Positions 3,016 to 55,078 of a DNA stretch of 64,000 bases are shown piece by piece. The notes below the pieces were generated by a model that was given only the letters and a program-made list of their open reading frames with translations, was not told where the DNA came from and ran no database searches. The stretch spans positions 1,326,692 to 1,390,691 of the forward strand of contig JAZGUH010000488.1 of assembly GCA_037893225.1 (NCBI GenBank). The letters are read 5' to 3'. Positions within the stretch are counted from its first letter, which is position 1, and every line of letters begins with the position of its first letter. Both the position numbers and the translations under genes were made by a program. This stretch comes from Hippasteria phrygiana. Taxonomy: Eukaryota > Echinodermata > Asteroidea > Valvatida > Goniasteridae.

Positions 3016-3063
3016 TTTAATTTTAATAAACCAAATATTTTAATCTTATAAATAAGATTTAAA

Positions 3064-3761: not shown

Positions 3762-3796
3762 GCGATTTTTTAAAAAGCTTTTTAAGCTTAAATAAA

Positions 3797-36300: not shown

Positions 36301-37554
36301 CACAATTGGAGCCTCCAAGATAATGTGTCCCTTTCAATTAACACCATGTTGGATCTATATTGATTTTCTTTAACAGACTTTTATAGAATTAAATACACTA
36401 TAGACAACTTTGTTCCTCACAACTGCATTCACCACTGGAGAACAGGGTCATGGATCTTGATTTGTTTGCCATATTTAAGGTAATGCTTTATATTGTGACG
36501 TTACGGCCCTCGGGCGGAAGAGAGAACTCGGTGAGGGCGCTCTCGTCCTCCTCGCGGCGTGGCGCGGACGGCACACCGGAGGGTCTCTGAGCGGCTAGAG
36601 ACGCGTCCGTTGGGATGGATACCGTCCCAGTATTGGACAGGTAGAAACTGGGCCCGGGTCACGTTACCTGCCGGGTCTTTAATTGAATGACAATGACCTC
36701 ACACTCAACAACCAATAAGAAACAGGCTGGAAGACACCATATGACGTGTAAGAAACTCAACGTGTACTGGTTTATTCACTCTACTTTTCTAGTAGCTGTC
36801 AACAGAGGGCGTTCCTTGATTTGAATTACCAGAGGGCTGCGTAACCACGATACAGTCAGTAGTGAAAAACCCACCATAAACATCGAGAACCCAGGGTTTA
36901 CCACAAGCGTAATTTTAGTCTTACGTAAGCTTAAGAGGCTAATTCATGGGTGTCGCCCCTCGCAGCAGCCTGCAAGAGTCACGGCAACAAGCCCCATTAA
37001 CGACCGTGGGCTCCTTTAAAAGGTACCCTTACCGCACAACCAATATAGCCAGACCCTCAACTCACCTGCTCTACGCCGCACTACTGCTAATAACACCCGT
37101 CGCTCTATGCAAGTGCAACAAAAAAGTGTTCGTAATCTCGCCCAATACAAGACAAGACCGCTTTAACTAGGCTTATGCGCTGCCTTTTATAGCCTCGCGG
37201 CCTGCATTCGCTGTGCACTGAACGTGCGCTTGCATAATGTGTGCTGCACGTGGCTAGAACGGTGACCTCTGCCGTCCAATCACGTCGCGCTATGCGAGGC
37301 TACGCACTCTGCCTGCTGTATGACACTGCCCCTATACGCTGTGCTATGCGTGCCTATGCCATATCTTTAACTTTAGTCGTTAAAGTGCTACCTTTAATAT
37401 ATATTTGTGTCTAGCTGCACTATCACGGCTGTAAACAACTCACCTCACGAGTCGGCTCTGATTTGTGTTGAATCTTGTCCAATGCAATTTGCCGGATAGA
37501 CGTTGTATGGTCGTAAAGGTTTAGCCGAACATGCGGTGTCTCGAAGAACTCCAT
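18266..37554 (-). CDS. Ornithine-decarboxylase-like gene (ODC/antizyme-inhibitor family), nine exons, 3' end missing
   Basis: Minus-strand exons at 37554-37444, 35036-34940, 34103-34027, 31732-31560, 30863-30729, 26330-26165, 24816-24642, 18724-18600 and 18392-18266 have GT-AG borders and compatible phases, with one continuous frame. In mouse ODC numbering the visible key residues are: K69 kept (AVKCN), D88 kept (FDCAS), H197 and S200 kept (FHVGS), the glycine loop kept (DIGGGFPG), E274 kept, R277 replaced by T (AEPGTF), D332 replaced by V (LNVG), C360 kept, D361 replaced by H (WGPTCH). Cofactor binding is thus largely preserved while the two acidic residues that hold ornithine are lost. It may be an antizyme-inhibitor-like protein or a decarboxylase of another amino acid. 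The last exon, which should carry the AYT...FN motif, was not found. 173-bp and 135-bp exons agree with my memory of vertebrate ODC exon sizes. Confidence 0.88.
18600..18724 (-). CDS. ODC-like exon 8, substrate Asp-332 replaced
   Basis: 125 bp, phase 1 start after acceptor TTCTAG. It encodes RSDQSIWMYYLNVGRFNAF... to ELLELQ. The family motif YYVNDGVYGSFN appears as YYLNVGRFNAFT, so the aspartate that binds the ornithine side chain is a valine. Confidence 0.88.
19185..19433. mobile_element. MITE with GGGCCCAATTTCATGGCTCT ends
   Basis: The two ends are near-perfect inverted repeats (GGGYCCAATTTCATGGCTCT). The internal 200 bp also folds back around gttagcg motifs. No coding capacity. Target duplication not clear. 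Confidence 0.75.
19802..20002 (+). other. Doubtful exon-like open frame
   Basis: A frame from ATG 19802 ends at a good splice-donor-like string, CTGCGG/GTAAGC. The frame at 20241-20372 and the one at 21050-21286 lie downstream on the same strand. They could belong to one small gene inside the ODC-like intron, but no family is recognised and the phases were not proved. Confidence 0.2.
21050..21286 (+). CDS. Small hypothetical protein in ODC-like intron 7
   Basis: 78 codons from ATG (MADTRNENETESTKLKC) to TGA, with a hydrophilic N-terminus and a helical part (SWTKFLESVLIWKDLGGKSAEIARCF). Amino-acid composition looks more protein-like than the neighbouring chance frames. I do not recognise the family. 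It lies antisense within the intron between exons 7 and 8. Confidence 0.3.
   Translation: MADTRNENETESTKLKCYAHLSEVFEDIKPITETSWTKFLESVLIWKDLGGKSAEIARCFIADHDGSDSIIGTLKKQS
21690..21775 (+). repeat. tRNA-like SINE fragment
   Basis: It contains a B-box GGGTTCGAATTCC with an A-box-like GATATAGCCTAGGGA about 55 bp upstream. The cloverleaf is not intact. Confidence 0.4.
21861..24000. other. No gene recognised
   Basis: AT-rich intron sequence of the ODC-like gene. Contains a poly-C run at 22578-22591 and a G/T-rich tract at 23340-23385. No coding or RNA feature supported. Confidence 0.5.
24000..24062 (-). repeat. tRNA-like SINE fragment
   Basis: Minus strand shows GTCGCAGGTTCGAATCCC, a perfect B-box with T-arm pairing, but no convincing A-box at the right distance. 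Confidence 0.4.
24150..24230. repeat. Degenerate CCCTAA-like array
   Basis: aaccctaaccctaccccaaa and following bases look like imperfect telomere-type hexamers (CCCTAA) over about 70 bp. Probably a low-complexity part of a repeat. Confidence 0.45.
24430..24503 (+). repeat. tRNA-derived SINE or tRNA pseudogene
   Basis: The D-arm and A-box are well kept (GATAGCTCAGTTAATAGAGC), and AAGTTCAAATCCCGCTCC follows at the right spacing as a T-arm. The acceptor stem and anticodon arm are damaged, so a working tRNA is unlikely. Confidence 0.55.
24642..24816 (-). CDS. ODC-like exon 7, EPGR motif changed to EPGT
   Basis: 175 bp. It encodes FAEAVRETLEECFPKSSGV... to DDEDG. The AEPG motif is followed by TF instead of RY, so the arginine that contacts the cofactor phosphate in ODC is gone; vertebrate antizyme inhibitors also differ at this point. 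Confidence 0.93.
25095..25256. mobile_element. 162-bp MITE, TA target
   Basis: Inverted ends AAGCCCGGTTCATACTTCAT, followed by repeated gcgaatgcgaatg; TA flanks both sides (25093-25094, 25257-25258). TA suggests a Tc1/mariner-type target, but the class is uncertain. Confidence 0.75.
25313..25545. repeat. Foldback of TCGCAGATTTCTGCGA units
   Basis: Outer arms acatcaaacatcgcagattt and its complement enclose many copies of the small palindrome cgcagatttctgcg in both orientations. No gene. Confidence 0.75.
26165..26330 (-). CDS. ODC-like exon 6, cofactor His and Gly loop
   Basis: 166 bp. It encodes FHVGSQSNDPKYY... DIGGGFPG... ITFDK. It holds the histidine stacked on the cofactor ring and the glycine-rich phosphate loop. 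Acceptor TTTTTAG, donor AAG/GTACTG. In the mouse and human gene I believe this stretch is split between two exons. Confidence 0.93.
26880..28015. repeat. Dispersed repeat copy (inverted relative to 58.4 kb), interrupted
   Basis: 26880-27235 and 27895-28015 match the reverse complement of 58375-58925: shared strings include ttcatgaaatcagtact, cttttctagaatac and gggttgtttgatttaaat. The middle part (27236-27894, with poly-G at about 27575-27640) is absent from the other copy. The right edge carries a small gatttaaatcat tandem array (27940-28008). Confidence 0.75.
28013..30010. repeat. TGACGTCA-rich repeat, two similar blocks
   Basis: Blocks at 28013-28420 and 29605-30000 share runs such as acctattacaaaaagaattt and catgttccgttgacga, and both contain many copies of gatgacgtcatcatgacgtca. 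A 29250-29460 block is a third, weaker copy. These sites resemble the CRE core but are part of the repeat. Confidence 0.7.
28736..29010. repeat. 12-bp GC-rich satellite (CGCGCCGCGTGT)n
   Basis: About 22 nearly perfect copies of cgcgccgcgtgt inside AT-rich intron DNA. It is very CpG-rich. All reading frames are open because the unit is a multiple of three; these are not genes. Confidence 0.95.
30729..30863 (-). CDS. ODC-like exon 5
   Basis: 135 bp. It encodes LVLRIVCED... to LQIIGV; R of LVLRI corresponds to the conserved R154 of ODC. Donor GAG/GTAAGA. Confidence 0.9.
31560..31732 (-). CDS. ODC-like exon 4, antizyme-binding region
   Basis: 173 bp. It encodes KEIQTVLDLGASPDDIIYAH... to VYPDA. 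This is the part of ODC that contains the antizyme-binding segment (here ESHLRFAREKGVRLMTFD). Acceptor TTCAAAG, donor A/GTAAGT. Confidence 0.92.
32480..32590. mobile_element. Small MITE-like inverted repeat
   Basis: Arms cgcccctttacgtatacaccaa and the complement of ttggtcaatacatttaggggcg, with acagccgcg / cgcggctgt inside. About 105 bp. Confidence 0.6.
32617..34010. mobile_element. TIR transposon carrying a THAP ORF, TTAA flanks
   Basis: Ends are AGAGGAACTAAAACGGCAA and its exact complement, with TTAA at 32613-32616 and 34011-34014. Inside is one THAP-domain ORF on the minus strand and no recognisable transposase core. TTAA would fit a piggyBac-like target, but the termini do not start CCC, so the class is uncertain. 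The right end lies 12 bp from the exon 3 splice donor. Confidence 0.72.
33294..33641 (-). CDS. THAP-type zinc-finger protein
   Basis: 115 codons if begun at the second Met (MPRSCVVGGC), the usual THAP start; an upstream Met at 33683 is possible. The domain shows the C-x4-C pair at the start, LLRFPVL, RRQWVRFV, and the C-x2-H pair in KICAEHF, then a GAIPTLG end like the AVPTIF box. THAP domains bind DNA and are often taken from P-type transposons. The tail after the domain is Arg/Ala-rich and may read into an intron. It is antisense-free: same strand as the ODC-like gene whose intron it occupies. Confidence 0.72.
   Translation of the reverse strand: MPRSCVVGGCTRNSDKNPDLTLLRFPVLNGVQRRQWVRFVDNTISDFGLSKWSKICAEHFAKDCIDDSVSMKTQLGLKAQFRLKAGAIPTLGTEHSNRAPDSRAAPRRRCLRLPS
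34027..34103 (-). CDS. ODC-like exon 3, cofactor lysine
   Basis: 77 bp, too short for an ORF list. It encodes AVKCNPDP... to FDCASK. The lysine of VKCN is the residue that binds pyridoxal phosphate in ODC. Acceptor CTGCAG, donor GTAAGA; phases fit exons 2 and 4. The THAP-bearing transposon ends 12 bp beyond the donor. Confidence 0.9.
34774..34929. mobile_element. MITE with GGCCGTGTCC ends
   Basis: Inverted ends GGCCGTGTCC / GGTAACGGCC enclose a (GGCTAC)n run. TTA at the left and TGA at the right could be a drifted Harbinger-type TWA duplication. It stops 10 bp from the donor of exon 2. Confidence 0.65.
34940..35036 (-). CDS. ODC-like exon 2
   Basis: 97 bp. It encodes DLEDPFIIYDLGDV... to TFYG, the strand leading to the cofactor lysine. 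Acceptor TTTAG, donor G/GTGAAT. A small transposon ends 10 bp beyond the donor. Confidence 0.88.
35040..36433. other. ODC-like intron 1, single-copy part; no gene recognised
   Basis: Ordinary intron sequence between exon 2 and the palindrome boundary. Short ORFs show no family resemblance. Confidence 0.5.
36494..37352 (-). mobile_element. Solo LTR, left-arm copy (5' part deleted)
   Basis: The end CGTCACA and a TATA box (GCTATAAAAGG on the minus strand near 37183-37193) match the complete LTR in the right arm. About 50 bp of LTR start and 300 bp beyond are missing at about 37352, compared with 55170-55517. It is in sense orientation in ODC-like intron 1. Confidence 0.75.
37444..37554 (-). CDS. 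ODC-like exon 1 (coding)
   Basis: 37 codons from ATG 37554-37552, ending CGTGAG before donor GTGAGT, phase 0. The bases just before the ATG (TTTGTTTGATTTAAG) look like a splice acceptor, so an upstream non-coding exon is likely. The exon lies in the left arm of the large palindrome and has a second copy at 54968-55078. Confidence 0.8.
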
Positions 37555-37977
37555 CTTAAATCAAACAAAAGTCTGGCTTAGTAAAGCCAGATTATCAGCC
37601 GACATTCCATTAACTTTAATTCCAGGCAAAAGCAACAACAGCTGAATACCAGTCACAAGCAATAATAGGCTAATCCTGTGTTCACCAACTTGGTTTTGGT
37701 CTCGGGGTCTGCTACCCGGTCGGGCCAGCCCACGTCAGCGAGCGGTCTAATGTTTGAAGGCCGGCGACGTCGATCCGTTTTGGCAGCACACCACCCGGTT
37801 CACACACACACCCAAGCAAGCATTCAGCCCTAACACACCTCGAAGGACGGGGTTAATGACGAAAATAACAGGGGACGGACACAAATAATGCAGAGCCAGT
37901 CTTCTTTATTCCTACACCCCGCGCCTTCATAAAGGCGCTTCTCCACAATTCTACGTCTCGCAAAGCTCACGTTTAAT

Positions 37978-40597
37978 TAGTGTTCATTCGTTTTGAACGT
38001 ACACAGGACAGTCATTTACGTCTCAACCAATAAAATGCCTTGCTTTTAAACGCTCCGCCCACTGTTACTGCCCACCGTGACCGTCCACTACCTTACCTTT
38101 ATTATTCAAATTGTACAGCGCTTGTAGTAATTATAATAACAGGGCAAGAGGATTTCAACTCGCCATCAGTACAAAAATCAGAATAACATAATAGAATTCT
38201 ACGCGGCAGGGTCTCGAACAGTGAGATGGAGTTGTGTACTGTATTGCGACTACTGGACATCATGACTTGATAAAGGAATGCATTTGAAACGTAACCCTGG
38301 GTAATTATAATGACTATTCAATCTCATGTTGATATTTTTCAAAAACATTTGTCTACCATTTCCCTATAACAATAAAAGTAAATACAAATCAATCTATCTT
38401 ACAGTAACATGTACACTGTCATCGGAATCCTATTTCTTTAATCTCTGCCAAAAAATGTTATCAACAATATCACATGTATTACGAATAACTAATTATAAAT
38501 GTTGTCTTGACTTAAGACCGAAACGGAGGTCAGCTAATTTGTTTAGTAAATTGTTGGTCTAAGTAGGGGTAGGGTCGCTACTTAGACTTACAATAGAAAC
38601 AGTACGTATGGTTTGAAAGGGTTAGGTAGGGTACCGTCAGTCTTTAGAATTTGGAACGCAAGAAAACAAGGCTAAGGCGGGGTATACGATCACTATACTT
38701 AGACTTACAATAGAAACAGTACGTAGGATTTGACAGGCTGAGGTAGGGTACCGTCAGTCTTTAGAATTTGGAACGCAAGAAAACAATAAGGCCAAGGCGG
38801 GGTATACGGTCACTACTTAGACTTACAATAGAAACTGCGTAGGATCTAAAAGGTTTATAGGTAGGGTACCATATTCATAAAAAGCAATGCATTTGAAACG
38901 CAAGGAAATGTTAGGGTTAACCCTTGTGCTATTTAATAGGTCAAAATCAGTCAAAATTTCCTTCCACCTCCCCTGCCTATACTTTGTACACAGACAGGGT
39001 CAGATTACATGTGGTTTGTACATGTGGCAGAAGGGTCACAAACAATCACCTTGACTGATTTTGACCCATACAACAACATGGCTCAGAATGCATGTTTGCA
39101 TAGGAGGGTTTTAAATTAAGGTAGACTATGGCCGGTATAGAATTAGAACGGTACTTAAGCTTTACAAAGGCTTGCTAAGGGTATTTTCAGTATTCAGAAA
39201 CAGCACGACATTGGGAAATACAAAAATAAATAAAAGCCAACAAGTACTGTCACTCTGGCAGACAGACTAATAACGTGGGGCACGAAATGGGACACGCTCG
39301 GCAGATAAATGCGAGGATGAGCATCAATGATGAGGAGAGGGCACTGGCGGCGGAACGGGGGGGGGGGGAATTCCCTCCCCCCCCCCCCCCCCCCCACACT
39401 TTTCTACTTGGGGGAAATCCCCCAACACTTTTGGCAGTTCCGCATAAATATAAACATAGAAAAAAAGAAGCCGACCGGCGCTGCTTTGGCCATCCCACTT
39501 TCAAAAATGTTCCGCCACCTGTGAGAGGGCACTTGTTCTGAATGCTTATCGCCTCAATGGCCTCGTTGGGCCCTTGTTAACCACGTCACTTGAAAATGCT
39601 GACCTCAACCCCCACCCTGACCCCTACCCCGACCTTCTCCACCCAACCCTGACCACCCCTCACCCCCACCACCACCCCAGATCCCCACCCTGACACCCAG
39701 CCTGACACACACCCACCCATACCACCTCCGCCCCAAACCAGTACTGCTGCAGTAAGCCTGCAGTGTAGGCATCACATTTCACACACATTTTAATTAATAA
39801 TCATATTGTAGGACCATTTTAGTCGACATTTTTCTCTAAATGCCTAAATGTTTCAAGGACCTTGAAATATTAAAATTAGCAACGACACTGTATAACCTTG
39901 ATAGAATTTACAGTAAACAAATGTTATGTATGTACCCATATGTTGAACATATTTCTGGAAACTACATACTGTTTGGATTGACCCAAAATGTACTAAACAA
40001 AATTAGCTGGCCTCCGTTCTGGTCTTAAATAAGATCTTCATCAAAGACAACATTTATAATTATTTATTCATAATCCTACATGTGATATTGTTGATAACAA
40101 TTCTTTATTTCTATTTGTTTCATTTTTGGCGGAGATTAAAGAAATACGATTCCGATGAAAGTATATATATATATGTAGGATTGTTTTGTATTTACTTTTA
40201 TTGGTAAAACAAAAATGGTAAATACACTTTTTTGAAATTTTTTAACATGAGATAGAGTAGTGCACTAAAGTGACCCCATGTAGTATTTGAAATGCATTCT
40301 TTATCAAGTCATATAACGTCCAGTAGGAAATATACAGTACACAACTCTATTTCACTGTTCCAGACGCTGCCGAGTAGAATTATCTTTTGTTATTCTGATT
40401 TTTGTACCGATGACGAGTTGAAATCCTCTTGCCCTGTTATTATAATTAGTACAAGCACTGTGTAATTTGAATAATAAAGGTAAGGTAGTGGACGGTCATG
40501 GTGGGCAGTAACAGTGGGCGGAGCGTTATAAGCAAGGCATTGTATTGGCTGAGACGTAAATTATCGTCCTGTGTACGTTTAAAACGAATGAACACTA
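37978..40597. mobile_element. Element with about 570-bp terminal inverted repeats, left-arm copy
   Basis: The ends TAGTGTTCATTCGTTTT and the complement are inverted over 37978-38546 and 39988-40597. The inside has three tandem copies of a 120-bp unit (38576-38850, containing agtacgtatggtttgaaagg or its variants), poly-G/C at 39358-39392, and no transposase. The same element is in the right arm at 50530-54511, so it was present before the inverted duplication. Confidence 0.8.
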
Positions 40598-40663
40598 ATA
40601 CAACGAATGTGGCTTACTGATTCGTTAAGGTTTCAAGAATCGGCAATCACTGAATGAACCAAT

Positions 40664-40669
40664 TACCAG
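40664..40669. repeat. Target site duplication TACCAG, left
   Basis: Direct repeat of 50116-50121, immediately outside the AGTAGTATA terminus. Six bases is the duplication size known for Polinton integrase. Confidence 0.85.
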
Positions 40670-40875
40670 AGTAGTATATACGGAGCCAGTGAGACCCCTA
40701 TTGGCGGTGCTGCCTCGAATTGCGGCGCCACCGCCTCGAGGCGCGGTGCTGGCGGTGCTGCTGGAGCTGCCTCCCTCATTTGGCGGTGCAGCTGGCGCAT
40801 AGCTCTTTCACCTTCTGCACCGCCTCCGAGAGTGGTGCCGGATTGTGTGTGGGTGGGTGTGTCAAAACGTGATGG

Positions 40876-41100
40876 GCTCGATGCCGATTGGTTAATTTAA
40901 AAATAACGGTCGATGCTGATTGGTTGATTAAAATTTGAAGCTCGATGCCGATTGGTTGATTTAAATGTGGCGTTCGGTGCTGATTGGCATGGTTGATTTA
41001 AATTTAACGTTCGATGCTGATTGGTTGATTTAAATGTGGCGTTCGATGCTGATTGGTTGATTTAAATATAACATTCGATGCTGATTGGTTGATTTAAATT
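40876..41100. promoter_or_regulatory. CCAAT-box tandem array, left half
   Basis: Seven copies of a roughly 32-bp unit containing gatgctgattggttgattta; read on the minus strand each has AACCAATCAGCATCGA, a CCAAT box. Two more ATTGG sites follow at about 41290-41310, and a TATA-like caataaaagt at 41351, about 100 bp before the WW/PC4 ATG. CCAAT boxes bind NF-Y; a promoter role is inference. Confidence 0.65.
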
Positions 41101-41452
41101 AAATAAGTATTTTCGAAGTTTGGGAAAAATAGACACCGCAGACGAGGGGTGTTGACGAGTCTGCTGAACGTGTCAAATGTAAATTGCAATGTAGATGACG
41201 TCATAGGTGTGACGTCACGGACAATGGCGCACATATTGTGTAAGGGATGAGGATGTTCCGGACAAGATTAATCTCTGAAACGTATATGCTGCGTTCTGAT
41301 TGGTCGATTGGTAAACAGTAATGGGTTGCTGTGGATACGAGAGGTCGGGGCAATAAAAGTGGGAGCGTTTGAATTCTGGCTGTCACTCGTGTGTCAGCCA
41401 CTGAAGATATCACACTCTCTGCATCAACCAAATTTTATCACGCAATAAAAAG

Positions 41453-42034
41453 ATGGACCCAGCACCAGGACCAAGCGTACCCCCGTCTTCCCCTTCTGGT
41501 GGTTTGGACAAGGGACCGTTTGAGTGTGTGAAGAAATTGACTCACACCCAAGTTAAAAAAGGCTGGCGCGAAGCTTACAGCGCGAGTGAGAAGAGGCCTT
41601 ACTATTACAACATTTACACCCGAGAGAGTCTGTGGTCCATACCTACCTTCCAACCAACGCAACAGGAGGAGAGTCAGGCGGACTCAGGACCCGCACCGGA
41701 CTTGCTGGCAGCTGCCATGGCAGAACTTTCCGGTACAGCGGATTTCACCCAGCCCCCGTTCGTGAAGGGAAAAGGCAAGAAGAGAAAGTTCAGCCCAGAC
41801 CCCAACCAGCGGGAGAACGACAACCAGGCCGTCAGATTTCAAATTGGAGGTGAGCGTTACGTTTATGTCAAGCGTTTCAAGGGCCGTGTGTACGTTAACA
41901 TCAGAGACTATTATTTCAACGAGGACAAAACTAAACTACTGGCAGGAAAGAAGGGGCTGAACCTAACGGCCGTGGAATGGATGAATTTGGCCGATCGGTG
42001 CAAGGCTATCACCGAGGCCATAGACATGGTCTAA
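41453..42034 (+). CDS. WW domain + PC4 (SUB1-like) protein, left half
   Basis: 193 residues. A Pro-rich start is followed by a WW domain (residues about 33-66; W38, YYYN at 50-53, W61, P64), which binds Pro-rich partners such as the RNA polymerase II tail. A basic patch (KGKGKKRKF, about 105-113) looks like a nuclear signal. Residues about 127-189 match the single-stranded-DNA-binding PC4 domain: FQIGGERYVYV, FKGRVYVNIRDYY and the GKKGLNLTAVEW segment. The combination suggests a nuclear transcription or replication factor for the element. An internal splice donor at 41850 allows a second product without PC4 (next entry). The other half has an identical copy. Confidence 0.88.
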   Translation: MDPAPGPSVPPSSPSGGLDKGPFECVKKLTHTQVKKGWREAYSASEKRPYYYNIYTRESLWSIPTFQPTQQEESQADSGPAPDLLAAAMAELSGTADFTQPPFVKGKGKKRKFSPDPNQRENDNQAVRFQIGGERYVYVKRFKGRVYVNIRDYYFNEDKTKLLAGKKGLNLTAVEWMNLADRCKAITEAIDMV

Positions 42035-42568
42035 ATTGATCTTCACAGTGGATATCAACACTTACATTTCCTACTTTTTCTACACACTACAGATTCCACG
42101 AATCAGGACATCGTCGATCGGCGGGCACGGGCGAGAAGACTCACTAAGCGAATTCTGACCAAGCTCATCACGGATGAGATATTCACCATAGTCTACCGGG
42201 CGCAGGAACAGCTGGGCTGCGAGGGATGCGAGGAGGACTGGCCGTGTCAGTGGGACCACGCATGCCTGTTCTTCGGCATGACTCCCGAGAGCTGCCTCGA
42301 TGATTTTCTATCCCAACACTTTGAGGAAGCCATACAATTGCTTGACACGGGGAAATTACTTCCTATATTTTATGCAGTAGCAGCCCTTTTGGGCGCTGGG
42401 TCGTTCGTGGGGGAAGGAATGGACTCGAACACTGAGATAAACTCAACGATTGCAGACATTTTGAATAAGTGGAAGACTGAGCAATCAGATATCGTCATTT
42501 CGTTCTATTCGATGTTTTTCAACAACACCACTGAACTTGTTCAATATACAGTTGATCTCATTGAGTGA
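41453..42568 (+). CDS. Predicted spliced isoform: WW + Cys/His tail, left half
   Basis: Exon 41453-41849 ends GGAG before a strong donor GTGAGC. The acceptor ctactttttctacacactacag ends at 42092. Joining 41849 to 42093 keeps one frame through the ORF ending TGA 42566-42568, about 290 residues. The new tail has a basic helix (RRARARRLTKRILTKL), a Cys/His cluster (CEGCEEDWPCQWDHAC) and a C-terminal part with a hydrophobic segment (LLPIFYAVAALLGAGSF). The 243-bp intron contains nearly the whole PC4 domain, so retention or removal would switch the protein. AATAAA follows at about 42586. This is a prediction; no transcript is available. Confidence 0.68.
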
Positions 42569-44035
42569 CATTTTAAATAACCTAAATAAATTGTTTCCGG
42601 GTTGTAAAATGTTCAAGTCATACCCAATGATCTAAATGGTTGATGTCGCTAATTTTCTCGTTTTCATTTATATTTAGTAAAATAGGTACTTGTAATTGGT
42701 ATTGTTGTTGCTAATGTGGTGGTGGGTAAAGTTTCAAGTTTGACCAAACAAACGAATTAATAAAATGATTGAGGAGAAGAAAAAAGAAATCAGAAATTCT
42801 TTAGTGTGTTCATTTGATGTCTGTTTAAATATAATTATTTAATTAGTAGTCTAACGTTAGTATCAAAATTATATATACAAAAAAACAAACAAACAAAGAA
42901 AATAAAAAACAAACTAACACGGATTTGCTTAAAATATAAAATAATAAAATATTTTTAATGCGGGTAGGCTATATAGGTAAATCAAAGAGTGGTTGTATAA
43001 CCAATGTAATAAATGAACGTACTACTCAAACATATCCGCCTATTCAAGGTTATTCACGTCCGGTGTTGTTCGCAAGATCTTGTTCCTTCCCATTGCCGGC
43101 GTTTTGACTTGGGTGTTTACCATTTCCTGCATTTTGACTAGGTTGTTTATCCCATTTCCTGAGTTTTTTCTTTATCTGTGTGAGACCATGGAGAAGGTCA
43201 GTACAATTATAGGTACGTAATTAGGTGGTATTGATGGGCATGAGGACTATAGATGCTTTTAATCACCCTACTGTATTTTATAAGGTCTACATAGTATAGC
43301 TGGTCTGTATAGTGTAATTAATGATTACATAGTTCATCGATGGGCTCGGGTCAAGGAATTATAATGGAATGGTTTGCTACGGTTTAGTCAGGACATACAT
43401 TCTTTTAATTAAGAGCTCGGAGACTCTGCGTGGCACTTCATATGTGTTGGGGACTGCTTGCAATGAATGCGTGGGTCTGTCGTTCATACTTCAGACAGAG
43501 CGGAACACCATGGGGAAAGGAATACACGGAGTCTAACCTCGATCAGGTAAACCTATTCCATTTTGCCATAAAACTCAAATAAATTCAATATTTGTTCATG
43601 TGTATTCACTCATTTATTTATCGGTACAAACTCTGCCCATTTATTAAAGATTTCCTTATTCGTCAGTTCTATGTTTTTCTTCTTTAACATGGACGAACAT
43701 TATGACAAGTAGTAAATTACATGACACTGTTGCTCCTAAATTTACTTGTTTTACCGGACCGGGAAGTACAAAGTGAGCCATGTAACGGGTTTTAAAGGTA
43801 AGCGTGCTAAAAGTTCACGTAAAAACTAAAACATAAAACATACAATTGAAATAATCAAAGTAGATTACGGAAAAAGCGAAAACTAAAAGTAAAATTTTTA
43901 AGCAAATGTACAAATTAAAAGTAAATTTGTAAAATATACGCTAATGTGATTAGCGTTCAGCATAAGGAAGTAAAATTATAACAATACAACAGTCTTTCTG
44001 AAACTGTTGGTCATTAATCATAACTGTCTTCCTCG
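42569..44035. other. Gap between the convergent genes, left half; no gene recognised
   Basis: 1.47 kb of AT-rich sequence identical to 46750-48216 in the other half apart from one or a few bases. I see only a polyadenylation-type AATAAA near the left end and no coding frame. Confidence 0.6.
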
Positions 44036-44743
44036 CTATTCAAGTTCCTCTTCATCTTGTTGGAACAGTCCATCAAATTTGGCCTGGTGTTTAGGCATTA
44101 CTCTGTTCAGGGCTTTCTTTACTTCTAGACCCTTATCTACTTTTTCTTCGAGATCTTCCACAATATCTTGATGAGTATCACTATCCTTTAGATGTAGGTA
44201 ACTTGACAGAAAATCCTTGTATTTGTTGAAGAAGATTCGTTTAACCACCCAAAGAGTCTTTCGATTGGCTTTTTCCCTGGCTTGATCTTCACCCACACCA
44301 CAGTTGACGTACTTTTCGTATTTTTTATTCCACATCTCTTCAGTGGCTTCTTTGGCCTCTTCCAACCAGTCTAGATAGGTGACATTGTCTTCCAATTCAG
44401 AACTAGACTCATCTTCATCTGATAATTCGTCATCTTCTACCTCATTTTCGGATTCCAAATACTTTTCCTCGAAATCTTCGTCTTCATCTTGCGTAGATTC
44501 AGTTTCAGAGTTGTCTATTTCTGAATCTTCAAATCTACGCCTTTTAAAATAGGATTCAGAATGATCCACGTCACCATATTCAGATTGAATAGCTTCAATT
44601 TCAGAATCATCGCCAACTTGATTCACTGTAGATTCTTCTGCAGCATGTACATCTTCTGCATGCCTGCGTAGGTTATATCTCCGTCCAAAGCTTTTGTTAC
44701 ACCGGTGACAAGCATGGGGTTTGACTGCAGCATTAACATTCAT
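44036..44743 (-). CDS. C2H2 zinc-finger protein with acidic region, left half
   Basis: 235 residues. One C2H2 finger at residues 10-33 (C12, C15, H28, H33; KSFGRRYNLRRH). Residues about 35-118 are very acidic, with E/D/S runs like an activation domain or histone-chaperone-like tail, and a basic spot KRRRF. Residues 120-220 are predicted helical (EMWNKKYEKYV, NRKTLWVVKRIFFNKYKDF), conserved-looking but not a domain I can name. Probably a nuclear DNA-binding protein. The gene starts next to the central satellite and runs outward, ending tail to tail with the WW/PC4 gene. Confidence 0.85.
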   Translation of the reverse strand: MNVNAAVKPHACHRCNKSFGRRYNLRRHAEDVHAAEESTVNQVGDDSEIEAIQSEYGDVDHSESYFKRRRFEDSEIDNSETESTQDEDEDFEEKYLESENEVEDDELSDEDESSSELEDNVTYLDWLEEAKEATEEMWNKKYEKYVNCGVGEDQAREKANRKTLWVVKRIFFNKYKDFLSSYLHLKDSDTHQDIVEDLEEKVDKGLEVKKALNRVMPKHQAKFDGLFQQDEEELE

Positions 44744-44847
44744 GTTGAATCTTTGAAGGTTAATCTCCGAATGACAAGAAAAGGATGAAATTGTTCAATA
44801 TAAGCACTTATTTTGTTCATAACTCTGGTATTTGTGATCAATTGCTT

Positions 44848-45940
44848 ATTTACTTATCTCGCTGCTCATTTGCTCTTTTTGTTGCTCATTTACTAATTTC
44901 TTGCTCATTGTGTTGCTCATTTGCTCATTTCTTGCTCTTTTTGTTGCTCATTTACTCATTTCGCTGCTCATTTGCTCATTCCTTGCTCTTTTTGTTGCTC
45001 ATTTGCTCATTTCTTGCTCTTTTGCTCATTTCGTTGCTCATTTGCTCATTTCTTGCTCTTTTTGTTGCTCATTTACTCATTTCGCTGCTCATTTGCTCAT
45101 TTCTTGCTCTTTTTGTTGCTCATTTGCTCATTTCTTGCTCTTTTTGTTGCTCATTTACTCATTTCGCTGCTCATTTGCTCATTCCTTGCTCTTTTTGTTG
45201 CTCATTTACTCATTTCGCTGCTCATTTGCTCATTTCTTGCTCTTTTTGTTGCTCATTTGCTCATTTCTTGCTCTTTTTGTTGCTCATTTACTCTTTTTGT
45301 TGCTCATTTGCTCATTTCTTGCTCTTTTTGTTGCTCATTTACTCATTTCGCTGCTCATTTGCTCATGTCTTGCTCTTTTTGTTGCTCATTTACTCATTTC
45401 GCTGCTCATTTGCTCATTTCTTGCTCTTTTTGTTGCTCATTTGCTCATTTCTTGCTCTTTTGCTCATTTTACTCATTTCATTATCTTTTTGTGACTCGTT
45501 TCGCTACGAAATGAGTAAAATGAGCAAATGAGCAACGAAATGAGTAAATGAGCAACAAAAAGAGCAAGAAATGAGCAAATGATCAGCGAAATGAGTAAAT
45601 GAGCAACAAAAAGAGCAAGAAATGAGCAAATAAGCAACGAAATGAGTAAATGAGCAACAAAAAGAGCAAGAAATGAGCAAATGAGCAGCGAAATGAGTAA
45701 ATGAGCAACAAAAAGAGCAAGAAATGAGCAAATGAGCAACAAAAAGAGCAAGAAATGAGCAAATGAGCAGCGAAATGAGTAAATGAGCAACAAAAAGAGC
45801 AAGGAATGAGCAAATGAGCAGCGAAATGAGTAAATGAGCAACAAAAAGAGCAAGAAATGAGCAAATGAGCAACACAATGAGCAAGAAATTAGTAAATGAG
45901 CAACAAAAAGAGCAAATGAGCAGCGAGATAAGTAAATAAG
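44848..45940. repeat. Central satellite and axis of the inner palindrome
   Basis: Left of about 45505 the strand is a tandem array of ttgctcatttgctcatttct / tgctctttttgttgctcat units (10- to 52-bp higher-order period). Right of it the array appears as the reverse complement. The left array is about 220 bp longer than the right, so the symmetry point of the flanks (45392.5) lies inside the left array. At the switch the sequence is gtgactcgtttcgctacgaaatgag, with a short imperfect hairpin. All frames are open through the array; the resulting ORFs are not genes. Confidence 0.92.
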
Positions 45941-46041
45941 CAATTGATCACAAATACCAGAGTTATGAACAAAATAAGTGCTTATATTGAACAATTTCAT
46001 CCTTTTCTTGTCATTCGGAGATTAACCTTCAAAGATTCAAC

Positions 46042-46749
46042 ATGAATGTTAATGCTGCAGTCAAACCCCATGCTTGTCACCGGTGTAACAAAAGCTTTGG
46101 ACGGAGATATAACCTACGCAGGCATGCAGAAGATGTACATGCTGCAGAAGAATCTACAGTGAATCAAGTTGGCGATGATTCTGAAATTGAAGCTATTCAA
46201 TCTGAATATGGTGACGTGGATCATTCTGAATCCTATTTTAAAAGGCGTAGATTTGAAGATTCAGAAATAGACAACTCTGAAACTGAATCTACGCAAGATG
46301 AAGACGAAGATTTCGAGGAAAAGTATTTGGAATCCGAAAATGAGGTAGAAGATGACGAATTATCAGATGAAGATGAGTCTAGTTCTGAATTGGAAGACAA
46401 TGTCACCTATCTAGACTGGTTGGAAGAGGCCAAAGAAGCCACTGAAGAGATGTGGAATAAAAAATACGAAAAGTACGTCAACTGTGGTGTGGGTGAAGAT
46501 CAAGCCAGGGAAAAAGCCAATCGAAAGACTCTTTGGGTGGTTAAACGAATCTTCTTCAACAAATACAAGGATTTTCTGTCAAGTTACCTACATCTAAAGG
46601 ATAGTGATACTCATCAAGATATTGTGGAAGATCTCGAAGAAAAAGTAGATAAGGGTCTAGAAGTAAAGAAAGCCCTGAACAGAGTAATGCCTAAACACCA
46701 GGCCAAATTTGATGGACTGTTCCAACAAGATGAAGAGGAACTTGAATAG
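46042..46749 (+). CDS. C2H2 zinc-finger protein with acidic region, right half
   Basis: The protein is identical to that of 44036-44743, in mirror position. Both copies are intact, which suggests recent origin of the palindrome or sequence correction between the arms. Confidence 0.85.
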   Translation: MNVNAAVKPHACHRCNKSFGRRYNLRRHAEDVHAAEESTVNQVGDDSEIEAIQSEYGDVDHSESYFKRRRFEDSEIDNSETESTQDEDEDFEEKYLESENEVEDDELSDEDESSSELEDNVTYLDWLEEAKEATEEMWNKKYEKYVNCGVGEDQAREKANRKTLWVVKRIFFNKYKDFLSSYLHLKDSDTHQDIVEDLEEKVDKGLEVKKALNRVMPKHQAKFDGLFQQDEEELE

Positions 46750-48216
46750 CGAGGAAGACAGTTATGATTAATGACCAACAGTTTCAGAAAGACTGTTGTA
46801 TTGTTATAATTTTACTTCCTTATGCTGAACGCTAATCACATTAGCGTATATTTTACAAATTTACTTTTAATTTGTACATTTGCTTAAAAATTTTACTTTT
46901 AGTTTTCGCTTTTTCCGTAATCTACTTTGATTATTTCAATTGTATGTTTTATGTTTTAGTTTTTACGTGAACTTTTAGCACGCTTACCTTTAAAACCCGT
47001 TACATGGCTCACTTTGTACTTCCCGGTCCGGTAAAACAAGTAAATTTAGGAGCAACAGTGTCATGTAATTTACTACTTGTCATAATGTTCGTCCATGTTA
47101 AAGAAGAAAAACATAGAACTGACGAATAAGGAAATCTTTAATAAATGGGCAGAGTTTGTACCGATAAATAAATGAGTGAATACACATGAACAAATATTGA
47201 ATTTATTTGAGTTTTATGGCAAAATGGAATAGGTTTACCTGATCGAGGTTAGACTCCGTGTATTCCTTTCCCCATGGTGTTCCGCTCTGTCTGAAGTATG
47301 AACGACAGACCCACGCATTCATTGCAAGCAGTCCCCAACACATATGAAGTGCCACGCAGAGTCTCCGAGCTCTTAATTAAAAGAATGTATGTCCTGACTA
47401 AACCGTAGCAAACCATTCCATTATAATTCCTTGACCCGAGCCCATCGATGAACTATGTAATCATTAATTACACTATACAGACCAGCTATACTATGTAGAC
47501 CTTATAAAATACAGTAGGGTGATTAAAAGCATCTATAGTCCTCATGCCCATCAATACCACCTAATTACGTACCTATAATTGTACTGACCTTCTCCATGGT
47601 CTCACACAGATAAAGAAAAAACTCAGGAAATGGGATAAACAACCTAGTCAAAATGCAGGAAATGGTAAACACCCAAGTCAAAACGCCGGCAATGGGAAGG
47701 AACAAGATCTTGCGAACAACACCGGACGTGAATAACCTTGAATAGGCGGATATGTTTGAGTAGTACGTTCATTTATTACATTGGTTATACAACCACTCTT
47801 TGATTTACCTATATAGCCTACCCGCATTAAAAATATTTTATTATTTTATATTTTAAGCAAATCCGTGTTGGTTTGTTTTTTATTTTCTTTGTTTGTTTGT
47901 TTTTTTGTATATATAATTTTGATACTAACGTTAGACTACTAATTAAATAATTATATTTAAACAGACATCAAATGAACACACTAAAGAATTTCTGATTTCT
48001 TTTTTCTTCTCCTCAATCATTTTATTAATTCGTTTGTTTGGTCAAACTTGAAACTTTACCCACCACCACATTAGCAACAACAATACCAATTACAAGTACC
48101 TATTTTACTAAATATAAATGAAAACGAGAAAATTAGCGACATCAACCATTTAGATCATTGGGTATGACTTGAACATTTTACAACCCGGAAACAATTTATT
48201 TAGGTTATTTAAAATG
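46750..48216. other. Gap between the convergent genes, right half; no gene recognised
   Basis: Mirror copy of 42569-44035 with the same lack of coding frames. Confidence 0.6.
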
Positions 48217-49332
48217 TCACTCAATGAGATCAACTGTATATTGAACAAGTTCAGTGGTGTTGTTGAAAAACATCGAATAGAACGAAATGACGATATCTGA
48301 TTGCTCAGTCTTCCACTTATTCAAAATGTCTGCAATCGTTGAGTTTATCTCAGTGTTCGAGTCCATTCCTTCCCCCACGAACGACCCAGCGCCCAAAAGG
48401 GCTGCTACTGCATAAAATATAGGAAGTAATTTCCCCGTGTCAAGCAATTGTATGGCTTCCTCAAAGTGTTGGGATAGAAAATCATCGAGGCAGCTCTCGG
48501 GAGTCATGCCGAAGAACAGGCATGCGTGGTCCCACTGACACGGCCAGTCCTCCTCGCATCCCTCGCAGCCCAGCTGTTCCTGCGCCCGGTAGACTATGGT
48601 GAATATCTCATCCGTGATGAGCTTGGTCAGAATTCGCTTAGTGAGTCTTCTCGCCCGTGCCCGCCGATCGACGATGTCCTGATTCGTGGAATCTGTAGTG
48701 TGTAGAAAAAGTAGGAAATGTAAGTGTTGATATCCACTGTGAAGATCAATTTAGACCATGTCTATGGCCTCGGTGATAGCCTTGCACCGATCGGCCAAAT
48801 TCATCCATTCCACGGCCGTTAGGTTCAGCCCCTTCTTTCCTGCCAGTAGTTTAGTTTTGTCCTCGTTGAAATAATAGTCTCTGATGTTAACGTACACACG
48901 GCCCTTGAAACGCTTGACATAAACGTAACGCTCACCTCCAATTTGAAATCTGACGGCCTGGTTGTCGTTCTCCCGCTGGTTGGGGTCTGGGCTGAACTTT
49001 CTCTTCTTGCCTTTTCCCTTCACGAACGGGGGCTGGGTGAAATCCGCTGTACCGGAAAGTTCTGCCATGGCAGCTGCCAGCAAGTCCGGTGCGGGTCCTG
49101 AGTCCGCCTGACTCTCCTCCTGTTGCGTTGGTTGGAAGGTAGGTATGGACCACAGACTCTCTCGGGTGTAAATGTTGTAATAGTAAGGCCTCTTCTCACT
49201 CGCGCTGTAAGCTTCGCGCCAGCCTTTTTTAACTTGGGTGTGAGTCAATTTCTTCACACACTCAAACGGTCCCTTGTCCAAACCACCAGAAGGGGAAGAC
49301 GGGGGTACGCTTGGTCCTGGTGCTGGGTCCAT
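48217..49332 (-). CDS. Predicted spliced isoform: WW + Cys/His tail, right half
   Basis: Mirror of 41453-42568: exon 49332-48936, intron 48935-48693, exon 48692-48217, with the same donor and acceptor bases and the same frame. Confidence 0.65.
48751..49332 (-). CDS. WW domain + PC4 (SUB1-like) protein, right half
   Basis: The 193-residue product is identical to the left-half copy. It is the unspliced form that ends at the stop inside the intron. Confidence 0.88.
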   Translation of the reverse strand: MDPAPGPSVPPSSPSGGLDKGPFECVKKLTHTQVKKGWREAYSASEKRPYYYNIYTRESLWSIPTFQPTQQEESQADSGPAPDLLAAAMAELSGTADFTQPPFVKGKGKKRKFSPDPNQRENDNQAVRFQIGGERYVYVKRFKGRVYVNIRDYYFNEDKTKLLAGKKGLNLTAVEWMNLADRCKAITEAIDMV

Positions 49333-49684
49333 CTTTTTATTGCGTGATAAAATTTGGTTGATGCAGAGAGTGTGATATCTTCAGTGGCTGACACACGAGT
49401 GACAGCCAGAATTCAAACGCTCCCACTTTTATTGCCCCGACCTCTCGTATCCACAGCAACCCATTACTGTTTACCAATCGACCAATCAGAACGCAGCATA
49501 TACGTTTCAGAGATTAATCTTGTCCGGAACATCCTCATCCCTTACACAATATGTGCGCCATTGTCCGTGACGTCACACCTATGACGTCATCTACATTGCA
49601 ATTTACATTTGACACGTTCAGCAGACTCGTCAACACCCCTCGTCTGCGGTGTCTATTTTTCCCAAACTTCGAAAATACTTATTT

Positions 49685-49910
49685 AATTTAAATCAACCAA
49701 TCAGCATCGAACGTTATATTTAAATCAACCAATCAGCATCGAACGCCACATTTAAATCAACCAATCAGCATCGAACGTTAAATTTAAATCAACCATGCCA
49801 ATCAGCACCGAACGCCACATTTAAATCAACCAATCGGCATCGAGCTTCAAATTTTAATCAACCAATCAGCATCGACCGTTATTTTTAAATTAACCAATCG
49901 GCATCGAGCC
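49685..49910. promoter_or_regulatory. CCAAT-box tandem array, right half
   Basis: Mirror of 40876-41100, here showing aaccaatcagcatcgaacg directly on the plus strand. It is upstream of the minus-strand WW/PC4 gene. Confidence 0.65.
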
Positions 49911-50115
49911 CATCACGTTTTGACACACCCACCCACACACAATCCGGCACCACTCTCGGAGGCGGTGCAGAAGGTGAAAGAGCTATGCGCCAGCTGCACC
50001 GCCAAATGAGGGAGGCAGCTCCAGCAGCACCGCCAGCACCGCGCCTCGAGGCGGTGGCGCCGCAATTCGAGGCAGCACCGCCAATAGGGGTCTCACTGGC
50101 TCCGTATATACTACT

Positions 50116-50121
50116 TACCAG
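50116..50121. repeat. Target site duplication TACCAG, right
   Basis: Direct repeat of 40664-40669 directly after the terminus TATACTACT. Confidence 0.85.
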
Positions 50122-50483
50122 TGTGATTGTATGATTAATAATCTATACTGTGATTGGGGTCTCGATTATTTAAATGAATCAGAACTCACGCTTCGTATGA
50201 GGCTCCTTCCTTGGACCTAACGTGATTCGCTTATTATTTGTACGTCTGCTCAGGACGATTGCCAAACGGGAAAAAAGGACGAGTCACGCCCGCTCTTGTT
50301 TTTATACTAAAATGCCACGCTAGGCTGGTGCCCTCCAACTTTGTGGCCTGTACTCGTAAAAGACGGCTAGAAGGTAGTCTAGCAACCTAGCGAAAAACTC
50401 GATTCTGGTATTAATCGATTCTGCATTGCGTTACAGTAGCCACGCAAGGATACTTTTCAATGGGCCGTATTTGTGCTAATGGG
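50122..50483. other. Spacer of the outer palindrome, right part
   Basis: Unique sequence with no counterpart in the left arm. Together with 40644-40669 it forms the roughly 388-bp spacer that separated the outer arms before the 9.4-kb element inserted. No gene seen. Confidence 0.75.
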
Positions 50484-50529
50484 CCGATTCTTGAAACCTT
50501 AACGAATCAGTAAGCCACATTCGTTGTAT

Positions 50530-53500
50530 TAGTGTTCATTCGTTTTAAACGTACACAGGACGATAATTTACGTCTCGGCCAATACAATGCCTTGCTTATA
50601 ACGCTCCGCCCACTGTTACTGCCCACCATGACCGTCCACTACCTTACCTTTATTATTCAAATTACACAGTGCTTGTACTAATTATAATAACAGGGGAAGA
50701 GGATTTCAACTCGTCATCGGTACAAAAATCAGAATAGCAAAAGAGAATTCTACTCGGCAGCGTCTGGAACAGTGAAATAGAGTTGTGTACTGTATATTTC
50801 CTACTGGACGTTATATGACTTGATAAAGAATGCATTTCAAATACTACATGGGGTCACTTTAGTGCACTACTCTATCTCATGTTAAAAAATTTCAAAAAAG
50901 TGTATTTACCATTTTTGTTTTACCAATAAAAGAAATACAAAACAATCCTACATATATATATATACTTTCATCGGAATCGTATTTCTTTAATCTCCGCCAA
51001 AAATGAAACAAATAAAAATAAGGAATTGTTATCAACAATATCACATGTAGGATTATGAATAAATAATTATAAATGTTGTCTTTGTTGAAGATCTTATTTA
51101 AGACCAGAACGGAGGCCAGCTAATTTTGTTTAGTTCATTTTGGGTCAATCCAAACAGTATGTAGTTTCCAGAAATATGTTCAACATATCGTCACAGTTTT
51201 CACGAACAGACGAATTTTGCCTCTCCGCACTAAACTAAAGTTACAAGAAAATCAGGTTTTAAGCTGCTCACTTTTTAAATTGAAGATAGTACCTGCGTTC
51301 ATACCACATGTTGATTCAGTGTTGACACTATGTTAAAGTTCAGTTCTCGGTCTTTCACAAGTAATTGGCAGCTAAGCGATAAGTCAATTAATTACAGAGT
51401 TATTAATTGATTAATAACTTTGTCTGTTCGTGAAAACTCAGAAGCGAGAAATGGCCTGTTTTGCCCCACAGAGTGTCAATTGTCTCTTCGTGAAAACCCA
51501 AAATCCATTTTCTGGCAATTTTGCCCTTCACAGCCCCATTGTATTAACACGGAGTTCAAATTCGTCTCTTCGTGAAAACCCAAAATCCATTTTCTGGCAA
51601 TTTTGCCCTTAACAGCCATACTGTATTAACACGGAGTTCAAATTCGTCTCTTCGTGAAAACCTAAAATCCATTTTCTGGCAATTTTGCCCTTCACAGCCC
51701 TATTGTATTAACACGGAGTTCCGAATTGGCACTTCTTGAAAACCCAAAATCCATTTTCTGGCAATTTTGTCCTTGACAGCCCTATTGTAACATAGAGTTT
51801 TGAATTGGCTCTTCGTGAAAACCCAAAATCCATTTTCTGGCAATTTTGCCCTTCTCGGCCATATATACGCTATGGCTGAAAAGGACAAAATTGCCAGAAA
51901 ATGGATTTTGGGTTTTCACGAAGAGCCAATTCAGAACTCTATGTTTGTGAAGGACAAAATTGCCAGAAAATGGATTTTGGGTTTTCACGAAGAGCCAATT
52001 CGGAACTCAGTGTTAATACAATAGGGCTGTGAAGGGCAAAATTGCCAGAAAATGGATTTTAAGTTTTCACGAAGAGACGAATTTGAACTCCGTGTTAATA
52101 CAGTATGGCTGTGAAGGGCAAAATTGCCAGAAAATGGATTTTGGGTTTTCACGAAGAGACGAATTTGAACTCCGTGTTAATACAATGGGGCTGTGAAGGG
52201 CAAAATTGCCAGAAAATGGATTTTGGGTTTTCACGAAGAGACAATTGACACTCTGTGGGGCAAAACAGGCCATTTCTCGCTTCTGAGTTTTCACGAACAG
52301 ACAAATGTATTAATCAATTAATAACTCTGTAATTAATTGACTTATCGCTTAGCTGCCAATTACTTGTGAAAGATCGAGAACTGAACTTTAACATAGTGTC
52401 AACACTGAATCAACATGAGGTATGAACGCAGGTAATATCTTCAATTTAAAAAGTGAGCAGCTTAAAACCTGATTTTCTTTTAACTTTAGTTTAGCGCGTA
52501 GAGGCAAAATTCGTCTGTTCGTGAAAACTGTGACGATATGGGTACATACATAACATTTGTTTACTGTAAATTCCATCAAGGTTATACAGTGTCGTTGCTA
52601 ATGTTAATATTTCAAGGTCCTTGAAACATTTAGGCATTTAGAGAAAAATGTCGACTAAAATGGTCCTACAATATGATTATTAATTAAAATGTGTGTGAAA
52701 TGTGATGCCTACACTGCAGGCTTACTGCAGCAGTACTGGTTTGGGGTGGAGGTGGTATGGGTGGGAGTGGGGTGGGTTGGGGTGGGTTGGGGTAGGGTGC
52801 GTGTCAGGGTGGGGATCTGGGGTGGTGGTGGGGGTGAGGGGTGGTCAGGGTTGGGTGGAGAAGGTCGGGGTAGGGGTCAGGGTGGGGGTTGAGGTCAGCA
52901 TTTTCAAGTGACGTGGTTAACAACAAGAGCCCAACGAGGCCATTGAGGCGATAAGCATTCAGAACAAGTGCCCTCTCACAGGTGGCGGAACATTTTTGAA
53001 AGTGGGATGGCCAAAGCAGCGCCGGTCGGCTTCTCTTTTTCTATGTTTATATTTATGCGGAACTGCCAAAAGTGTTGGGGGATTTCCCCCAAGTAGAAAA
53101 GTGTGGGGGGGAGGGAATTCCCCCCCCCCCCCCCGTTCCGCCGCCAGTGCCCTCTCCTCATCATTGATGCTCATCCTCGCATTTATCTGCCGAGCGTGTC
53201 CCATTTCGTGCCCCACTTTATTAGTCTGTCTGCCAGAGTGACAGTACTTGTTGGCTTTTATTTATTTTTGTATTTCCCAATGTCGTGCTGTTTCTGAATA
53301 CTGAAAATATCCTTCGCAAGCCTTTGTAAAGCTTAAGTACCGTTCTAATTCTATACCGGCCATAGTGTACCTTAATTTAAAACCCTCCTATGCAAACATG
53401 CATTCTGAGCCATGTTGTTGTATGGGTCAAAATCAGTCAAGGTGATTGTTTGTGACCCTTCTGCCACATGTACAAACCACATGTAATCTGACCCTGTCTG

Positions 53501-54511: not shown

Positions 54512-54967
54512 ATTAAACGTGAGCTTTGCGAGACGTAGAATTGTGAAGAAGCGCCTTTAAGAAGGCGCGGGGTGTAGGAATAAAGAAGACTGGCTCTGCA
54601 TTATTTGTGTCCGTCCCCTGTCATTATCGTCATTATCGTCATTAACCCCGTCCTTCGAGGTGTGTTAGGGCTGAATGCTTGCTTGGGTGTGTGTGTGTGA
54701 ACCGGGTGGTGTGCTGCGGGCCAGGCGGTAAACTGCCGCCAAAACGGATCGACGTCGCCGGCCTTTAAACATTAGACCGCTCGCTGACGTGGGCTGGCCC
54801 GACCGGGTAGCAGACCCCGAGACCAAAACCAAGTTGGTGAACACAGGATTAGCCTATTATTGCTTGTGACTGGTATTCAGCTGTTGTTGTTTTTGCCTGG
54901 AATTAAAGTTAATGGAATGTCGGCTGATAATCTGGCTTTACTAAGCCAGACTTTTGTTTGATTTAAG

Positions 54968-55078
54968 ATGGAGCTCTTCGAGACACCGCATGTTCGGCTA
55001 AACCTTTACGACCATACAACGTCTATCCGGCAAATTGCATTGGACAAGATTCAACACAAATCAGAGCCGACTCGTGAG
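54968..55078 (+). pseudogene. Duplicate of ODC-like exon 1 (orphan)
   Basis: 111 bp open from ATG with donor GAG/GTGAGT, differing from 37444-37554 by a codon change (Phe to Leu at residue 3). No further ODC-like exons follow on this strand before the window ends. It could be transcribed from a duplicated promoter, but it has no partner exons here. Confidence 0.85.

Follow-up and report, generated by a model that had tools for sequence, protein, structure and literature searches.

A palindromic element of 9446 base pairs (bp) lies in a 64,000-bp stretch of the genome of the sea star Hippasteria phrygiana (hereafter the window; C488:1326692-1390691, C488 being contig JAZGUH010000488.1). The element is probably a non-autonomous, palindromic satellite of Polinton-type elements that was made by fold-back during strand-displacement copying. 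It spans positions 40670-50115 of the window, and its two arms pair over 4344 positions with 3 mismatches. Both termini carry AGTAGTATA and the hexamer TACCAG stands in direct orientation outside each of them. These features had been recognised in an earlier, sequence-only reading of the window and were confirmed. Polinton inverted terminal repeats begin with AG, as do both ends of the element and those of another Polinton of the same genome (C98). In addition, the element is flanked by a target-site duplication of 6 bp, which is the length given for Polintons in the available text of PMC10045372. The window contains the end sequence AGTAGTATA three times, namely at the two ends of the palindrome and at the right end (8808) of a Polinton located at the left edge, as the earlier reading had also noted; three matches were reached in 1 of 100 shuffles. 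The main parts of the element are the following:

40670..50115, no strand: whole palindromic element, 9446 bp
40670..45013, + strand: left arm (symmetric stretch), pairing over 4344 nucleotides with 3 mismatches
45772..50115, - strand: right arm (symmetric stretch), pairing over 4344 nucleotides with 3 mismatches
40664..40669, + strand: left target-site duplication TACCAG, direct orientation
50116..50121, + strand: right target-site duplication TACCAG, direct orientation
44850..45935 (about), no strand: central head-to-head tandem array (GCTCATTT / AAATGAGC), proposed fold-back axis

The symmetry is imperfect at the centre because the two sides of the head-to-head array differ, and it ends at AGTAGTATA; beyond this, the first 25 bases to the left and the first 367 to the right lack a mirror image. 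Further out, the flanks form an interrupted inverted repeat (36434-40644 versus 50483-57774), whose spacer of 386 bp (25 + 367 - 6) is occupied by the palindrome. This flanking repeat is older than the palindrome. In 4087 columns of its three longest blocks there are 40 mismatches, whereas the 4344 arm pairs of the palindrome have 3 (Fisher p 8e-10). The count excludes a fourth block, which has 3 mismatches over 160 columns. The region as a whole is rich in inverted repeats, and three more palindromic stretches were detected in the window, at 51184-52540 (1357 bp), 12377-12988 (612 bp) and 25295-25557 (263 bp), one of them made of inverted tandem units.

Polinton ends in the satellite and its possible helpers

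The relationship of the element to Polintons proved stronger than the sequence alone could reveal, with 2.5 kilobases (kb) of each arm shared with the end of the Polinton C98. Comparison in 250-bp steps demonstrated that arm positions 1-2500, including a gene for a protein with WW and PC4 domains (WW-PC4), share 88-99% identity with the right end of C98 but lack a match in C4, another palindrome of the genome. Arm positions 2524-4250, in contrast, are 94-99% identical to C4 and have no match in C98 except for 29 bases at the boundary. The switch between the two modules takes place within about 5 bp (arm 2524-2528) and is mirrored in both arms. A continuous match across this junction was found at another site, C413. 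The inner part of the element, which contains a C2H2 gene and the head-to-head array, is also present in palindromes that have another end type. The modules are arranged as follows:

40670..43197, + strand: Polinton-derived end module (arm 1-2528), matching the right end of C98
47588..50115, - strand: mirror copy of the Polinton-derived end module
43193..44850, + strand: satellite core (from arm 2524), common to other palindromes; junction at 43193-43197
45935..47592, - strand: mirror copy of the satellite core

C98 (C98:1984724-2001106) is a 16.4-kb Polinton by its parts, which were examined as separate stretches. It has AGTAGTATA at both ends, a duplication AGCCGA and 178-bp inverted repeats that are 99.4% identical. 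The integrase core, the chromodomain and the B-family DNA polymerase (PolB; DNA_pol_B_2) of C98 scored above the Pfam cut-off, an ATPase weakly like Adeno_IVa2 fell just below it, and a protease weakly like Peptidase_C5 also scored below it. Two further proteins without a Pfam match are taken by us to be the major and minor capsid proteins. The WW-PC4 protein, of 193 amino acids, is encoded at the right end of C98 and also in a second Polinton, C261, and WW-PC4 is therefore a Polinton gene in this genome. That the element and an autonomous Polinton of this genome have their ends in common is expected of a non-autonomous derivative. The Polinton at the edge of the window is not the partner of the palindrome, which is instead a C98-like Polinton. 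The two neighbours in the window have in common only about nine end bases (AGTAGTATA). The window Polinton (1-8808) is the end part of an element with an rve integrase and a 1332-amino-acid PolB-like open reading frame (ORF) that has an Endonuclease_7 match and is about 25% identical to the PolB of C98.

The second end type begins with AGTAGTG. A search with the first 1500 bases of C102, a palindrome with this end, yielded at least 102 match places, many of them inverted pairs, from the best 40 of 609 candidates scored. Ends of this type cap the PolB elements C693, C458 and C519. In C693:877053-891765, an inverted end pair flanked by the duplication CCTACC delimits 14.7 kb. This interval contains a C2H2 gene and an open reading frame for PolB that extends over two adjacent stretches, with 818 codons in the first (DNA_pol_B_2, E 5e-30) and 382 in the second. 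The PolB of C458 is 91% identical to that of C693 over 818 residues and the PolB of C519 is 81% identical over 755 residues. C519 (C519:268537-289937, duplication AACCGC) has a palindromic C2H2 core beside its right end; it is either a recombinant or the type of molecule that gives a palindromic satellite by fold-back.

Distribution and movement of the family

The host genome (944 megabases, 1285 contigs) was searched using positions 1-4131 of the arm as a query. At least 57 matches on at least 25 contigs were found, these counts being lower bounds from the best 40 of 587 candidates scored. The contigs comprise 22 with satellites, two with Polintons (C98 and C261) and one with C519, the PolB element that contains a palindromic core. 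In 17 of the 22 satellites the core was matched in both orientations; two of these 17, C430 and C433, have a partial match in the second arm. The satellite in C413 is rearranged, with inverted ends and a single core, and in C153, C362, C529 and C857 one core was found within the stretch examined, that of C529 being flanked by a 353-bp inverted pair. Seven of the 22 loci (C153, C179, C203, C362, C433, C529 and C857) have no complete end pair in the stretches examined. A scan of genome pieces for AGTAGT (or AGTATTG) ... ACTACT pairs flanked by the same hexamer on both sides gave 14 elements. The insertions are listed with their duplications and lengths:

C102: duplication AACATA, 8138 bp
C231: duplication CCCAGG, 5809 bp
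C29: duplication GGCACG, 5809 bp
C343: duplication TGCGAG, 6434 bp
C384: duplication CTTCGC, 8291 bp
C430: duplication AATGCA, 2956 bp, much of the right arm lost
C451: duplication TACGTG, 8130 bp
C45: duplication GCCGCC, 5991 bp
C488 (window): duplication TACCAG, 9446 bp
C4: duplication GATGTG, 4010 bp
C646: duplication AACGTG, 6475 bp
C683: duplication GTGACC, 7713 bp
C689: duplication CACCCG, 6395 bp
C860: duplication GACGTC, 6324 bp
C413: duplication GTTGGG, rearranged
C635: duplication CACGGG, 13.1 kb, C2H2 in both arms (one in two pieces), found by its ends

The family thus includes at least 16 insertions of 3.0-13.1 kb (14 with both arms, the truncated C430 and the rearranged C413), and the exact 6-bp duplications of all 16 are different. 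Identical flanking hexamers accompanied 13 of 101 AGTAGT pairs, versus none of 431 pairs for nine control hexamers. The sequence-only reading had named other insertions with the same ends and differing duplications as a check. This held for AGTAGT and for the duplications, but the full AGTAGTATA end is common to C488 and C413 only; the other satellites whose ends were read start with AGTAGTG, and C4 has AGTATTG at one end. Nor is the gene pair of the element confined to single host loci. The head-to-head array is present in 13 of the 14 complete elements. Inverted AGTAGTG-type pairs 2-12 kb apart were also observed in C464, C995, C489, C774, C153:2100251-2104714, C273, C541, C427 and C656, and these nine are probably further satellites or relatives.

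Near-identical full-length palindromes were found at different sites. When one of the two is flipped, C102 and C451 align over 8130 positions with a single base difference and one gap of 8 bases; C231 and C29 have 3 mismatches in 5809. The duplications differ within both pairs. The whole palindrome therefore moves as a unit. Further, C102 and C451 have inherited the same arm-to-arm difference, which indicates that the palindrome was copied whole. In most of the elements tested, the arms are more alike within than between elements. A tree of the core of 12 elements (24 arms) was built from a stretch of 1.07 kb, or about 2.1 kb for C102, C451, C384 and C683. The arms paired within the element in 7 of the 12 (C488, C4, C860, C384, C689, C343 and C646), the arms of C231 and C29 were all identical, and those of C102, C451 and C683 were mixed. 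Copying as a unit and an occasional return to symmetry are both needed.

Genes carried in each arm

Two genes in each half of the palindrome had been proposed from the sequence alone. The WW-PC4 and C2H2 genes are indeed present, but they are not all, as a second exon makes a third coding piece:

41453..42034, + strand: WW-PC4 gene, left copy; 193 amino acids, Pfam WW and PC4 above cut-off
48751..49332, - strand: WW-PC4 gene, right copy; from the ORF list
42093..42568, + strand: putative second exon (alternative C-terminus of the WW protein), left copy; predicted intron 41850-42092, GT...AG
48217..48692, - strand: putative second exon, right copy, from ORF 48217-48507 and symmetry; predicted intron 48693-48935
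44036..44743, - strand: C2H2 gene, left copy; 235 amino acids, zf-C2H2 below Pfam cut-off
46042..46749, + strand: C2H2 gene, right copy; from the ORF list

According to the available text of PMC4028283, Polintons encode a protein-primed PolB, an RVE integrase, an ATPase and a protease. None of these four was found in the window element, whose ORFs and Pfam scan gave WW-PC4, the helical exon and C2H2 only, and no transposase was present among the ORFs examined. Both domains of WW-PC4 scored above the Pfam cut-off (WW, E 2.3e-7; PC4, E 1e-12), PC4 being a single-strand DNA-binding domain. The C2H2 protein has one finger, which is below the cut-off. Relatives with E of 0.001 or better were 24 among 161 candidates for WW-PC4, 67 among 1388 for C2H2 and 11 among 50 for the second exon. 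The named relatives are from the bat star Patiria miniata, and most of the others lie on short contigs. In one Patiria protein, P0004, the WW half continues into the second exon, and the join falls where GTGAGC and ACAG stand in the window; an optional intron is therefore likely. The two exons of the window would give a protein of 290 amino acids by calculation, compared with 291 for P0004. Through this intron the WW gene probably yields both WW-PC4 and a second product, in which the WW half is linked to a helical domain. An AlphaFold2 model of the second exon is helical (mean pLDDT 80) and had no significant fold match, the best being E 1.3 among viral structures and E 0.6 in the PDB (a Bcl-2 relative). 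Scans of IMG/VR with both protein alignments gave 64 and 49 pattern matches and no confirmed relatives, in a scan from which records near the genome of the window may be omitted.

Comparison of WW-PC4 between the window and C98 revealed 9 synonymous changes in 128 sites and 6 non-synonymous changes in 451 sites. This substitution pattern fits constraint, which may come from the history of the Polinton itself. Among the C2H2 ORFs, 30 of the 33 listed are full length, in a listing that took in ORFs keeping the finger and tail only. Broken C2H2 copies exist, because C153, C683, C857 and C860 gave no such ORF and C384 gave one of two. An identical C2H2 ORF is present in all six arms of C231, C29 and C45, which have three different duplications; this is a sign of very recent activity.

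Origin of the palindromes and relation to known elements

In the mechanism that we favour, fold-back of a Polinton-type satellite, the integrase of a helper Polinton would act in trans, recognising the AGTAGT ends and producing the 6-bp duplication. The helper PolB would begin copying at the ends through protein priming, and the 3-bp repeat in AGTAGT would suit jumping back. The action of both enzymes in trans is suggested by the ends and by the length of the duplication. A satellite dependent on the Polinton integrase and polymerase was also the inference of the sequence-only reading, and the present results support it. The displaced single strand would then fold at the central head-to-head array and be copied round, so that the same end appears twice. 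Linear plasmids of the invertron type are described in the available text of PMC1864894 with a terminal-protein primer, a possible 'snap back' start and a presumed strand displacement as in adenovirus. The sequence of the palindromes points to a fold-back origin, since one end is doubled about an internal inverted repeat, with the module and its junction mirrored. A single fold-back event would account for the palindrome, for the presence of a Polinton end with the same junction in both arms and for the likeness of the arms. Fold-back could both form palindromes and restore their symmetry, and satellites could exchange ends with helpers.

Several observations weigh against this explanation. 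C693 has no integrase or capsid gene in 878500-890500, as judged by ORF lists and tblastn, and the helper with AGTAGTG ends is therefore not proven to be a full Polinton. Of 14 elements, 12 have hairpins of at least 24 bp near the centre, C860 and C430 being the exceptions. Broken and single-arm copies occur, and no replication intermediate, excision or transposition has been observed. The arm difference inherited by C102 and C451 indicates that the palindrome is not remade each time, and the idea of its being remade at every transposition was dropped. Finally, 19 distinct C2H2 ORFs have a ratio of non-synonymous to synonymous rates (dN/dS) of about 1.1. There is therefore no sign of recent selection on the gene that belongs to the satellite itself, and recent purifying selection on C2H2 was dropped as a proposal.

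A chromosomal origin, in which an ordinary Polinton derivative was inversely duplicated by hairpin-capped breakage and its arms are kept similar by gene conversion between them, appears unlikely. Inverted repeats are abundant around the element, and gene conversion would likewise give alike arms within elements. Breakage, however, would leave mirrored flanks, yet direct 6-bp duplications bound 16 of 16 palindromic or derived copies, and near-identical palindromes stand at different sites. Gene conversion may help to keep the arms alike, but alone it cannot explain the insertions. Less probable still are cut-and-paste transposons of the Fold-back type, unrelated to Polintons, with very long inverted repeats and an unknown transposase. 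Long inverted repeats and tandem arrays are known in Foldback elements, and the helpers with AGTAGTG ends show PolB and no integrase in the stretches examined. Against this, a Polinton end makes up 2.5 kb of the window copy, and the end type and 6-bp duplication match both the Polinton C98 and the PolB elements. The limit of symmetry at AGTAGTATA, the direct hexamers and the unmirrored flanks misfit a simple chromosomal inverted duplication as well as an artefact; assembly or sequencing artefacts do yield palindromes, and the window has two nested levels of inverted repeats, but with 15 further insertions on other contigs that have their own ends and duplications such an error is hardly credible.

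The fold-back explanation can be extended, more tentatively, to the possibility that half-replicon palindromic satellites form a distinct class of mobile element, which spreads via half-length hairpin molecules and changes helper by single-end exchange; we hold this somewhat doubtful. Such a hairpin would have one protein-capped AGTAGT end and one closed end at the central array. One acquired end would therefore suffice to dock onto a new helper and would then be doubled automatically. C2H2 would be the satellite's own gene, and WW-PC4 would have arrived from the helper with the end.

Both non-autonomous transposons and palindromes derived from linear replicons are familiar types of element. 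C98, a Polinton/Maverick (adintovirus-like), has AGTAGT ends, a 6-bp duplication and the 2.5-kb right end with WW-PC4 in common with the window satellite, but it is 16.4 kb long with inverted repeats of 178 bp and encodes integrase and PolB, whereas the satellites are whole palindromes without them. The elements C693, C458 and C519 share AGTAGTG ends with the satellites, and 6-bp duplications were directly seen in C693 and C519; they differ in encoding PolB, and C693 is unpalindromic beyond its inverted repeats in the stretches examined, while C519 has a palindromic core. In yeast killer plasmids and defective adenovirus genomes, one end is also doubled by fold-back to give a head-to-head palindrome. 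These palindromes are accidental and extrachromosomal, whereas the satellites are integrated between target-site duplications and are passed on as a family. Foldback/Galileo elements and miniature inverted-repeat transposable elements resemble the satellites in their long inverted repeats and tandem arrays and, presumably, in mobilisation in trans. The former, however, have a P-type transposase, other termini and another duplication length than the 6 bp of the satellites, and the latter are short and non-coding, unlike satellites of several kb with a 235-amino-acid C2H2 ORF in many copies. With virophages, satellite viruses and other helper-dependent elements the satellites would share their reliance on the machinery of another element, but no capsid gene was seen in them, and they are palindromic and inserted into the genome of an animal.

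Palindromes as long as these tend to be unstable and have been viewed as accidents. In this genome, a transposon family has the palindrome as its usual and heritable form. A literature search whose scope lay outside Repbase and most subscription journals found no transposon family that is usually one complete palindrome, moves as a unit and has Polinton ends. The available text of PMC11071308, PMC11071296, PMC7805220, PMC10045372, PMC6431247, PMC10294476, PMC4028283, PMC1864894 and PMC12368964, searched for the stem palindrom-, contains no palindromic Polinton derivative. The mosaic structure of the window element reveals that a satellite and a virus-like helper have exchanged ends; it locates the junction to within about 5 bp and places WW-PC4 among Polinton genes. 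The divergence between arms could serve to date each insertion, in the manner of long terminal repeats, if conversion is allowed for. To our knowledge, there are few direct data on how Polinton DNA is copied in animals, and the palindromes provide genomic evidence on this process, pointing to strand displacement and fold-back.

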